Shown: positions 50,790 through 53,988 of the stretch, in pieces
Layout of the letters: every line of letters starts with the position of its first letter
Numbering within the stretch: the first letter of the stretch is position 1
NCBI GenBank assembly: GCA_019358945.1
Contig: JAHHIE010000004.1
Location: 1 to 64,000 of the forward strand
DNA from: Stenomitos rutilans HA7619-LM2
GTDB taxonomy: Bacteria; Cyanobacteriota; Cyanobacteriia; Leptolyngbyales; Leptolyngbyaceae
Length of the DNA stretch: 64,000 nucleotides
Direction of reading: 5' to 3'
Translations under genes and position numbers: made by a program
Notes under the pieces: generated by a model
The model's database searches: none
What the model saw: only the letters and a program-made list of their open reading frames with translations
What the model was told of the DNA's origin: nothing

Positions 50790-51352
50790 AGAAACTGACC
50801 CCGGTAGCGAAAGAACTCAATCAAATCCCAAGTCTGACGAGTGAGCATGAGTAATATACAGGGCAGCGGCAGGGTTGCCTCCTTACTTAAACAAAACTTA
50901 GGAACGAGAATTAATCAACGTGTGCTTTTGAGAGGGTCGTGGGCATCCTACTGTCGTAAAGGGCAGAAGGCTAGAGAAGTTAGTTGTTGGTTGTTAGAAG
51001 ACCGCTGACGGCTGACGGCTGACGGCTGACCGCTGATGGCTCAAGAAGGCAGAAGGCAAAACCTTTGTTAGTTCTGCGTTTGGGCAGTGATGGGTTATTT
51101 CCGATAAGGCGTACTAGTCGTTCGTCATCGCACCCGGTTTCTAGAAAAGCAAGCAGGCTCCAACGCGATCGTAAAACTCACAAAAAATTTATAAAAAGGT
51201 GACGGGTATGTTGAGTCAGTAAGCGAATGAAGCAGGGGTATGCGAGCAAACAATTGCTTGGTACCACTGGTGACAGATTGATTGAGTCGTCTGTTTATTT
51301 AATAAGCTTAAGGTCATAATCAGTATGCCTCTATCGGTGAGCGTTTTTAGTG
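50790..51352. other. 563-bp spacer upstream of the PBP2 gene
   Basis: It separates the divergent large membrane protein and PBP2 genes. At about 51001-51038 a tandem CTGACGGCTGACGGCTGACGG unit (7 bp) occurs, followed by GACCGCTGATGGCTC, the same unit type as in other spacers. The rest has no gene. The final 100 bases before the PBP2 start should hold its promoter. Confidence 0.45.
51001..51038. repeat. Heptameric CTGACGG tandem repeat
   Basis: Four to five copies of a 7-bp unit (GCTGACG, with one variant GCTGACC). Similar GCTGACCGCTGAC-type units occur in spacers at 42768, 55083 and 60483. Confidence 0.6.
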
Positions 51353-53122
51353 ATGGCTAGTGGTCTTTCGGTTAATTCAAAAAGCCGTCGCATTCATGTA
51401 GCGCTGACGCAGCGATCGCAGCGATCGGTCATCTTTCTGCTCATCCTCACGGGATTGATCAGCGGTTGCCTGTTGCGTCTGATCCAACTCCAGTTAGTGC
51501 AAGGGCAATATAATCGGCACCTGGTGGATAAAAACCGCATTTCGCTAGTGCCGTCTCCGTCCGATCGAGGCAATATCCTCGATCGCAACGGCAAACTACT
51601 GGCAGCTAATCGTTTGGCGCGATCGGTCTACCTTTCACCTAGAGAAGAATCAAAAGCCCAGTGGGCAGAAACGGCGACTGCCTTAAGCCGAATCCTCAAC
51701 GTACCGCGTGAAGAGATCCTCACGAAGCTAGAGCAAGTTGGGTACCGTGCCCCAATGCCTGTGAGGATTAGCCGCGATTTGACGCTTCCTGCCTTTGTGG
51801 CACTGGCAGAAAAACACAATCAATTTCCAGGCTTAGAAATTCGCGGCGAGTCCAACCGCGACTACCCCAACGCCGATTTAGCAGCACACGTTTTGGGTTA
51901 CATCCGTGAGGCAACAGCGGACGATTTAAAGAAAAACCCCGACTACCCAATGGGCATGCTCGTTGGGCAAATGGGCATTGAACGCATTGCCAACACAACC
52001 TTGCAAGGGAAGTGGGGCGGACAATTGCTGGAAGTGGATGCTTCTGGGCAGGTGGTCAAAGCGCTGGGGATGAAGCCAGCCAAAGCAGGCACGTCCATGC
52101 AGTTGACGCTTGATTTAGCGTTGCAAAAAACGGCTGAGAAAGCATTGGCGAAGCGTCGTGGAGCCGTCGTGGTATTGGATGTGAAAACGGGTGAAGTACT
52201 AGCCCTCGCCAGCGGGCCAACCTTCGATCCCAACCTGTTTACTCGCCGCATTTCACCAACCGATTGGAAACAGCTACAAAGCCGCAATCAGCCTTTTCTA
52301 AACCGGGCGCTGCAAGGGTACCCACCTGGAAGCACGTTTAAGGTCGTAACGGCAGCGGCTGGCATACAGTCTGGCAAGTTTTCGCCCGATTCAACCCTGG
52401 CAACCTTTGCAGCACTCAATCTAGGTGGACACCTGTTTCACGAACATGGCGGAGGCTACGGCGTGATTGGGTTTCGGGAGGCGTTTGCTTATAGCAGTAA
52501 CACGTTCTTTTACCAAGTGGGTTTGGCAGCAGGCCCAGAAGCGATCGCGAAGTGGGCCAAACGACTGGGGATCGGTACGACCGATAATATGGGGCTTGAA
52601 GGCGGGACTCACGGCCTGGTACCAACCCCTGCGGAAAAGGAGAAGCTTTTCAAGGAACCCTGGTACGGGGGCGATACCGTCAGCATGTCGATCGGACAAG
52701 GGTTGGTGCAGGTCACTCCGCTAGAAATGGCCGTCATGGTGTCATCGATCGTCAACGGTGGCAAACGCGTCAAGCCTCATCTCTTGCTGTCAGAAACCAA
52801 CACACCAGCCATGCAACCTGTAACGACAGGTTTAGACCCTGGCACGATCGCCATTATTAAAGCAGGACTCATCGCGGTGGTGCAACAAGGCACGGCCAGC
52901 CAATTGAATGATGGTTCCATTCCACTCACAGGTGGTAAAACCGGAACAGCAGAAGTGCCAGGGCAACCAGATAATGCTCTGTATGTCGGCTTTGGGCCAG
53001 CGAGTAACCCAAGCATTGCCGTTGCGGTAGTAGTGGAGAACGGCGGCTTTGGAGCAGTATCAGCCGTACCGATCGCGAAAGAAATCTACAAAACCTACTT
53101 CCGATCGCATCCGAAGCAGTAA
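51353..53122 (+). CDS. Penicillin-binding protein 2 (class B transpeptidase)
   Basis: A 589-residue class B PBP for lateral peptidoglycan synthesis, partner of RodA in the elongasome. A single N-terminal anchor (VIFLLILTGLISGCLLRLI) is followed by the dimerisation domain with DRGNILDRNGKLLAANRL and the transpeptidase domain: SxxK in PPGSTFKVV, SxN in YSSNTFFYQ, and KTG in GGKTGTAEVP. YPNADLAAHVLGYI is typical of this group. GTG-ATG (51350/51353) begin the frame; I prefer the ATG. The gene is directly followed by the DnaA-box cluster. Confidence 0.94.
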   Translation: MASGLSVNSKSRRIHVALTQRSQRSVIFLLILTGLISGCLLRLIQLQLVQGQYNRHLVDKNRISLVPSPSDRGNILDRNGKLLAANRLARSVYLSPREESKAQWAETATALSRILNVPREEILTKLEQVGYRAPMPVRISRDLTLPAFVALAEKHNQFPGLEIRGESNRDYPNADLAAHVLGYIREATADDLKKNPDYPMGMLVGQMGIERIANTTLQGKWGGQLLEVDASGQVVKALGMKPAKAGTSMQLTLDLALQKTAEKALAKRRGAVVVLDVKTGEVLALASGPTFDPNLFTRRISPTDWKQLQSRNQPFLNRALQGYPPGSTFKVVTAAAGIQSGKFSPDSTLATFAALNLGGHLFHEHGGGYGVIGFREAFAYSSNTFFYQVGLAAGPEAIAKWAKRLGIGTTDNMGLEGGTHGLVPTPAEKEKLFKEPWYGGDTVSMSIGQGLVQVTPLEMAVMVSSIVNGGKRVKPHLLLSETNTPAMQPVTTGLDPGTIAIIKAGLIAVVQQGTASQLNDGSIPLTGGKTGTAEVPGQPDNALYVGFGPASNPSIAVAVVVENGGFGAVSAVPIAKEIYKTYFRSHPKQ

Positions 53123-53751
53123 GTTGCTTATCAAACTACAAAGACGCAAAGGTCGCAGAGAGTTTCTCAGCGATCGCTGCGTCTCTGCGGTCATACCTCT
53201 GGGGATCACACGCAAAATTTTTGAAAAATCATGACGTTTATCACTTTTGCAATTCTTATCATTGCGGTCGCTTTTCCCCACGCAATCCACACTGTTTCCA
53301 CAAAAATTTTGCGTCTTCTCCACACCTTCTCCACAGGTTCTCCACAGGTTTACGTTTGTTTTCCACAAGCTTCACGCAACAATCGGGCTTTGCCGCCGCG
53401 ATCGACCAACTGGGGACGATCGGGATCAATGAGCCAGAAGCGCATGAACTTCATAACTTTATGTAACAAAAAAGTCCTTCAAATCCCGATTCTCTCGTAA
53501 ATCTTTTGATCATCTAAAGTTGCGTGTAACATTTCGCAGCATTGACAAGATGGGGAAGGCGACTGCACAATGTGACGACCTGCTTGAAAGCGCACTGAAC
53601 CGATCGCTGGCAAACATCCATCCTGTCTTTATTTGAGAGAGGAGTTGGCACCAGCAAGGTCTGGCTTTGCGCTGCGTTTGGCTGCTTAAACCGCTAGCCG
53701 ACAGATGTACACCCATTCACCCTGCCCATGCAAGGGAGAACCCAAAATTCT
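53123..53751. other. 629-bp gene-free region holding the DnaA-box array
   Basis: No gene is supported in this gap between PBP2 and DUF2811. It begins with a simple repeat (AAGACGCAAAGGTCGCAGAGAG, then a GCGTCTCTGCGG unit), then an A/T-rich stretch around 53211-53262, the array of TTCTCCACA-like boxes (53283-53367), and a second A/T-rich stretch around 53450-53520. Reading frames that cross the array are artefacts of its repeated sequence. Confidence 0.55.
53283..53367 (+). other. Cluster of six phased DnaA-box-like 9-mers (candidate oriC or DnaA-binding locus)
   Basis: Six 9-mers of the form N-N-N-T-C-C-A-C-A lie on one strand: CAATCCACA at 53283, GTTTCCACA at 53294, TTCTCCACA at 53316, 53327 and 53338, and TTTTCCACA at 53359. 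The last equals the DnaA-box variant common in cyanobacteria. Start-to-start spacings are 11, 22, 11, 11 and 21 bases, i.e. whole turns of the helix. A/T-rich stretches flank the array on both sides. No dnaA or dnaN gene is in the window. This could be the replication origin or another cooperative DnaA site. Confidence 0.62.
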
Positions 53752-53988
53752 ATGAATAGCACCGTTAGCTTGTTAGTTGAAGTTCCCGAAGTTCTACATG
53801 ATTCGCTAAAGCACTATCTCGAAATTCGCCCCGATTGGGATCAAGACCGGGTGTTTGCGGCAGCCCTGTCTCTGTTCCTGCTGCAAAATCGCAGTACTGA
53901 TGCCTTCCCCGAAAAACAAAACCAGCGTCAAGCGTCGCGGATTTACCTGGATGCGTTGTTCAAACGTCCGATCGGGCAGAACAATTAG
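53752..53988 (+). CDS. DUF2811 family small protein
   Basis: A 78-residue soluble protein of the cyanobacterial DUF2811 family. Visible family features are the N-terminus MNSTVSLLVEVPEVLHDSLK, the central YLEIRPDWDQDRVFAAALSL, LFLLQN, and the C-terminal SRIYLDALF. It resembles a short ribbon-helix-helix-like unit, but the function is unknown. The frame is open to 53728; ATG 53752 matches the family. It follows the DnaA-box region directly. Confidence 0.82.
   Translation: MNSTVSLLVEVPEVLHDSLKHYLEIRPDWDQDRVFAAALSLFLLQNRSTDAFPEKQNQRQASRIYLDALFKRPIGQNN

Follow-up and report, generated by a model that had tools for sequence, protein, structure and literature searches.

A phased array of DnaA-box-like sites ahead of a small cyanobacterial gene looks like a gene switch rather than a chromosome origin

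The window, a stretch of 64,000 nucleotides from Stenomitos rutilans HA7619-LM2, carries a dense array of DnaA-box-like 9-mers. Is this array the chromosome origin, or does it serve the gene that lies downstream of it? An earlier note had proposed oriC or a DnaA-titration/control site. The six 9-mers it reported at 53283 to 53367 are present, all on the + strand with start spacings of 11, 22, 11, 11 and 21, and profile matches (PF00905/PF03717 and PF10929) confirm their placement between a PBP2 gene and a DUF2811 gene. The core of all six is TCCACA. A degenerate seventh unit and a further conserved element precede them.

53245 to 53263, + strand: TTTTGCAATTCTTATCATT element preceding the array; a run of some 19 columns without variation, in eight rows from seven same-genus genomes
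53272 to 53280, + strand: degenerate box 0, TTTTCCCCA, a seventh unit 11 bp upstream of 53283
53283 to 53291, + strand: DnaA-box-like 9-mer CAATCCACA
53294 to 53302, + strand: DnaA-box-like 9-mer GTTTCCACA; 9/9 bases invariant in seven genomes
53316 to 53324, + strand: DnaA-box-like 9-mer TTCTCCACA
53327 to 53335, + strand: DnaA-box-like 9-mer TTCTCCACA; 6/9 bases invariant in seven genomes
53338 to 53346, + strand: DnaA-box-like 9-mer TTCTCCACA
53359 to 53367, + strand: last box, TTTTCCACA; 9/9 bases invariant in seven genomes

The highest same-strand count of TCCACA per 90 bp is six in the window and at most three in 300 first-order Markov shuffles; six such cores in 90 bp are beyond chance. 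Across the window's genome the box-triple pattern occurs in three places: the window array, a second and similar array at C39:461417-461486, and C3:49339-49372. The last was rejected as a box array, being a short TCCACAC tandem repeat. By the triple pattern the window array is the largest non-tandem box cluster of its genome. Three minus-strand TTTTCCACA boxes with spacings of 21 and 31 were also observed at C28:32550-32610 (L416:6551-6611), just downstream of what we take to be a guaA-like gene. An Rfam search returned only two non-credible lncRNA matches, far under their gathering scores.

The array lies in the following setting.

51350 to 53122, + strand: PBP2 gene (PF00905/PF03717), the upstream neighbour in the window's genus
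53368 to 53541, + strand: spacer of 174 bp from the last box to TTGACA; 91/174 columns invariant in the genus
53542 to 53571, + strand: promoter-like TTGACA-N18-CACAAT; 12/12 hexamer bases invariant in seven genomes
53752 to 53988, + strand: DUF2811 gene (PF10929, E 7.9e-24), long form of 78 aa
54117 to 54908, + strand: PD-(D/E)XK nuclease family gene (PF12705, E 2.2e-32), the downstream neighbour

The interval from PBP2 to DUF2811 was compared in seven same-genus genomes, the window's own included. The array sits in the same place in all seven. Box cores are invariant at 40/42 bases and the spacers inside the array at 5/33; the box at 53327 is replaced in two genus genomes by TTTTCCCCA and a shifted box. 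Since cores and promoter-like hexamers are near-invariant while the array spacers vary, both the boxes and the promoter-like site are under selection. The 11, 22, 11, 11, 21 architecture is kept in the other genera of the family that were fetched, some of which miss one box, and the box triple is absent from 4 of 42 genomes of the family. Among these other genera the upstream gene varies and DUF2811 remains downstream of the array; at the loci examined PBP2 is the neighbour only within the window's genus. The nuclease gene follows DUF2811 at all ten array-A loci fetched from the family. A second type, array B, has spacings of about 11, 11, 22 and 21 and stands ahead of a shorter DUF2811 paralogue. 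Both types occur in the window's genome, where the C39:461417-461486 array (L123) precedes the paralogue; the gene downstream of this paralogue is presumably HemJ-like. We note that genome G398 has two array units about 7 kb apart (L118). Sequence resembling TTTTGCAATTCTTATCATT precedes the boxes in several further families too. TTCTTA[TG] occurs within 170 bp before the last box at 140/164 loci, a count without a matched control, and the box 0-like TTTCC[CT]CA within 110 bp before it at 127/164.

To follow the array more widely, 168 DUF2811 loci were gathered. Eighty are from named Nostocales (the best 80 of 461) and the others were chosen by array, as best-scoring DUF2811 matches or for family spread. 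At least two same-strand TCCACA cores lie within 1200 bp upstream of DUF2811 at 160/168 loci and at least three at 152/168. The first count is inflated because the loci are related: 104/168 are Nostocales-type (family f7 being counted there by similarity), and all 104 have at least two boxes. Eleven loci, all Nostocales-type, repeat another's 400-bp upstream sequence; with these removed, 149 of 157 distinct loci keep at least two boxes. Outside the Nostocales-type and family f19 the figure is 52/56. Family f19 itself has at least two boxes at 4/8 loci, mostly one or two boxes with one locus having three. At least three boxes are found at 79/80 named Nostocales loci versus 0/782 control windows from those same loci. 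There are exceptions. No array was found close to DUF2811 in G014, G076, G080 and G093, four dnaA-positive genomes of a single genus (g8), and L204 (G308) has a single box upstream. Among the matches listed, 101 box-triple entries divide into 39 beside DUF2811, nine beside a located dnaA or dnaN and 53 beside neither, some of the last being simple repeats; 12 of the 51 listed genomes with a located DUF2811 have no listed triple beside it. In f19 and f17 (L336, L338, L340, L344, L361, L347 and L349) a forward box upstream of DUF2811 is followed 44 bp on by a reverse box, a layout unlike the phased array.

DUF2811 also occurs on plasmids. Thirteen such records were found by tblastn, all cyanobacterial. 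Eight of the 13 were examined and seven have at least two upstream boxes; TTGACA follows at 173-174 bp in five of the eight, two of these five having it also at 5 bp. This holds even though their proteins share only 42-54% identity with that of the window. The boxless gene, on a Leptolyngbya boryana plasmid, is inside an apparent operon. On chromosomes and plasmids, the array unit is linked to the DUF2811 gene, not to dnaN.

The distance between array and promoter-like site is close to fixed. The TTGACA that comes next after the last TTTTCCACA lies 172-175 bp from it at 131 of the 156 loci (of 168) that have both marks: 99/104 Nostocales-type loci, 32/49 other loci and 0/3 in f19. The remaining 17 of the 49 loci outside the Nostocales-type and f19 deviate. 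The distance from TTGACA to the ATG is looser, with a median of 198 bp, a middle half of 181-211 bp and a 5-95% range of 124-338 bp. When 34 selected loci were aligned, TTGACA was nearly invariant and a second hexamer, mostly CACAAT, lay 18-19 bp on. A promoter scan gave 10/12 matches at 53542-53571, and two sites in the region versus a shuffle mean of 0.9. As a -10 element CACAAT is poor, and sigma-70 promoters usually have spacers shorter than 18-19 bp. Within 53368-53541, after the array and ahead of the promoter-like site, lie the conserved GTAACAAAAA and TAACATTTCGC segments. Their conservation suggests that they are candidate sites for further DNA-binding proteins.

The assignment of the downstream gene to DUF2811 is secure, at 84.2 bits against a Pfam curated cut-off of 26.6. 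The window's genome has four DUF2811 matches in all, the array-A and array-B copies among them. Two AlphaFold2 models (mean pLDDT 58.1 and 61.2) have three helices. Foldseek returned nothing at E ≤ 0.001 for the first model and a best Z of 4.8 for the second, and searching the PDB by sequence produced two weak matches, the better at E 0.24. A ribbon-helix-helix fold, guessed from the sequence pattern, found no support in any of these searches and was dropped. No open-access paper that we found names DUF2811, subscription journals and papers giving only locus tags being outside the scope of that search. Among the open literature on cyanobacterial oriC and DnaA boxes, no title or opening of an abstract describes this locus.

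According to the excerpts of PMC7198777, one model cyanobacterium requires DnaA, others can do without it and some have lost it. We searched for dnaA and DUF2811 across the same 386 genomes, 186 of which are in the window's class. DUF2811 was found in 173 of the class genomes and missed in 13, and all 13 are also without dnaA. The four combinations number 167 (both present), 0 (dnaA only), 6 (DUF2811 only) and 13 (neither), giving a Fisher p of 8e-16 with related genomes counted and without correction for phylogeny. One dnaA-positive genome, G105, has only a partial DUF2811 profile match (E 4.1e-6). The 13 co-losses come from five family/genus groups; both genes are still present in other members of families f7 and f11. 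Where DUF2811 is retained without dnaA, the match is broken by stop codons in G306 and G147 and apparently intact in G054, G183, G268 and G374. Four of these six matches have no same-strand box upstream, two of the four having one or two reverse cores; the remaining two loci have one TTTTCCACA and a lone GTATCCACA. Counted from the triple table, box triples occur in 4/19 dnaA-less versus 100/167 dnaA-positive class genomes. Two of the four dnaA-less triples contain TTTTCCACA, in G109 (an exact 21-bp repeat) and G151.

We think it fairly probable that the array is a DnaA-responsive control region of DUF2811, itself a likely participant in the DnaA pathway. DnaA would assemble cooperatively into a filament on the phased same-strand boxes, and this filament would regulate the TTGACA-N18/19-CACAAT site across the near-fixed spacer of about 174 bp. 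Other bound factors probably join DnaA in acting on the promoter-like site, which would in turn drive the small DUF2811 protein. We infer a role for DUF2811 in the DnaA pathway because the gene is in every dnaA-positive class genome and is usually lost or broken without dnaA. DnaA binding and promoter activity are likewise predictions. The DnaA-control half of the original proposal gains support from boxes that are kept while their spacers vary, and from the loss of the array at the DUF2811 loci left in dnaA-less genomes.

A bolder form of this proposal makes DUF2811 a hitherto unrecognised regulator of cyanobacterial DnaA or initiation, placed in a feedback loop in which the array sets DUF2811 and DUF2811 acts back. 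We offer it tentatively, at somewhat less than an even chance. DnaA on the array would set the output of DUF2811 by way of a rigid regulatory complex of 174 bp; DUF2811 in turn would feed back to DnaA, to oriC or to the cell cycle, and the plasmid copies would tap the same control. Repeated co-loss would follow from such a loop, because the gene would be useless once DnaA-dependent replication was lost.

A titration or activity-switching site for DnaA, resembling datA, DARS or the B. subtilis clusters, with DUF2811 merely incidental, is a less likely reading. It would explain why boxes cluster away from where origins usually lie and why the DUF2811 loci of dnaA-less genomes have lost the array, and removal of six such clusters is reported to cause early initiation in B. 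subtilis (excerpts of PMC5295017). A titration site, however, need not keep one gene, one strand and a near-fixed promoter distance through rearrangement and plasmid transfer. Even so, some titration of DnaA by the array may occur as a by-product.

That the array is the chromosomal oriC, or one of several origins, we consider improbable. It does have the box cluster expected of a bacterial oriC: the boxes are dense and phased, with A/T-rich stretches on both sides. Adjacency to dnaN or dnaA is another mark of an origin, and here dnaA is on contig C19 and the dnaN-like genes on C104 and C30. Cyanobacterial oriC has been placed near dnaN (PMC4674748 and PMC7198777, in part) and adjoins it in most species according to the excerpts of PMC4674748. 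Two-stranded boxes were found upstream of dnaN at 36/54 loci, made up of 20/24 from the family and the Nostocales-type and 16/30 from a wider set. All five same-genus relatives searched have such a cluster, in one common layout and with a DnaA-trio-like run. The DnaA trio belongs to the basal unwinding system of bacterial origins, as the excerpts of PMC8287927 describe. By a simple (NTA)x3 pattern, a trio-like run after a box is present at 21/54 dnaN loci in all, and at 21 of the 36 dnaN loci with at least four boxes versus 0/168 DUF2811 loci, the window's included.

The position of the array argues in the same direction. In relatives, 45 dnaN-array pairs (three genomes counted twice; chromosome lengths partly rounded and not all chromosomes closed) have a median separation of 0.66 of half a chromosome, a scatter for which a uniform distribution is not rejected (p = 0.14); three pairs are less than 100 kb apart, which would suit an origin. 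The array unit also occurs twice in the window's genome and in several others, as well as on plasmids. The GC skew of the window by itself is uninformative. In relatives, skew was sampled in 20-kb stretches with errors of 0.01-0.02. In G397 negative values prevail as far as about 3.3 Mb, interrupted by positive ones at 1.72, 2.26 and 3.07 Mb, and the values between 3.6 and 4.7 Mb are positive. This places the sampled sign change, and with it the minimum, closer to dnaN (3.05 Mb) than to either array A (1.17 Mb) or array B (4.73 Mb), though weakly. G402 and G177 gave no clear skew pattern in the sampled stretches. In cyanobacteria GC skew frequently takes an irregular course, and replication in some species begins at several sites (excerpts of PMC7198777), which leaves more room for an origin at the array.

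Two further observations favour an origin. At 18/54 dnaN loci, including those of three Nostocales-type and three f18 genomes, there is no two-stranded cluster, so in these genomes the origin may lie elsewhere; this third of the dnaN loci raised our estimate very slightly. At L149, L151, L152, L364, L366, L368, L390, L391 and others, the 1500 bp ahead of the matched dnaN domain contain no box core. The second concerns the window's own genome (7.28 Mb in 119 contigs, with one dnaA on C19), in which no canonical dnaN/oriC segment was found and the array is the largest non-tandem cluster. Its only dnaN-like genes are two weak, divergent copies at C104:3000 and C30:33569, with no boxes near either; the latter is beside genes that we take to be dnaX-like and holA-like. 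The 901-bp segment upstream of dnaN in a same-genus relative has no match in the assembly. The array therefore keeps a small chance of being the origin of this genome. The oriC half of the earlier proposal is weakly supported, given the two-stranded dnaN clusters of relatives, the scattered array-dnaN distance and the plasmid copies. The earlier note had named two findings that together would count against its claim. A better cluster elsewhere does exist in relatives, same-genus ones included; failure of the array to be conserved was not seen, and the array is very well conserved, yet as part of the DUF2811 locus.

Equally improbable is that the array sites are recognised by some other protein than DnaA, DUF2811 or a further regulator for instance, and that their likeness to DnaA boxes is convergent. 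In favour of this, DUF2811, a small protein, might bind DNA and regulate its own gene, and a further conserved motif, TTTTGCAATTCTTATCATT, is next to the array. Against it, the array 9-mers match both the cyanobacterial DnaA box TTTTCCACA (given in the excerpts of PMC4674748) and the boxes at dnaN in relatives, and dnaA-less genomes have lost or eroded the array even at loci that retain DUF2811.

The cluster of likely DnaA sites is real and ancient, and it looks like the switch of a small gene rather than an origin. A class-wide gene with a conserved, putative DnaA-box control region is a concrete candidate; in our sample it accompanies dnaA without exception and is usually lost with it. Through it, the control of replication in polyploid cyanobacteria, and what disappears along with dnaA, become open to test. 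Predictors that rely on box clusters could mistake the DUF2811 locus for oriC.

Several known systems bear comparison with this one. Sda of B. subtilis is a small checkpoint protein. DnaA binds the promoter region of its gene, sda, and controls transcription according to replication status, as excerpts of PMC5295017 and PMC8203912 report; the same sources describe how replication in Bacillus is coupled to other processes by Sda, under DnaA control, and by SirA, which binds DnaA. The DUF2811 region resembles sda in having DnaA boxes upstream of the gene and conserved with it. It differs in phylum and protein family, in a phased array about 174 bp upstream of a promoter-like site, and in the co-loss of DUF2811 with dnaA, DnaA control here being putative. 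The B. subtilis DnaA-box clusters outside oriC are, like the array, multi-box and away from the origin; removal of all six advances initiation, and one restored at various places gives partial relief (PMC5295017, in part). Unlike these clusters, the window array is tied to one gene family with near-fixed geometry. In E. coli, datA, DARS1 and DARS2 are also DnaA-control loci outside oriC, but the excerpts of PMC5010248 and PMC4585315 present them as non-coding loci that control the nucleotide state of DnaA at a conserved distance from oriC, whereas the DUF2811 array unit is gene-linked and scattered relative to dnaN. Finally, cyanobacterial oriC at dnaN shares with the array the same 9-mer family TTTTCCACA, 11-bp steps included. 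The dnaN clusters, however, are two-stranded (36/54) and have trio-like runs (21/54), whereas the array is one-stranded and free of such a run.
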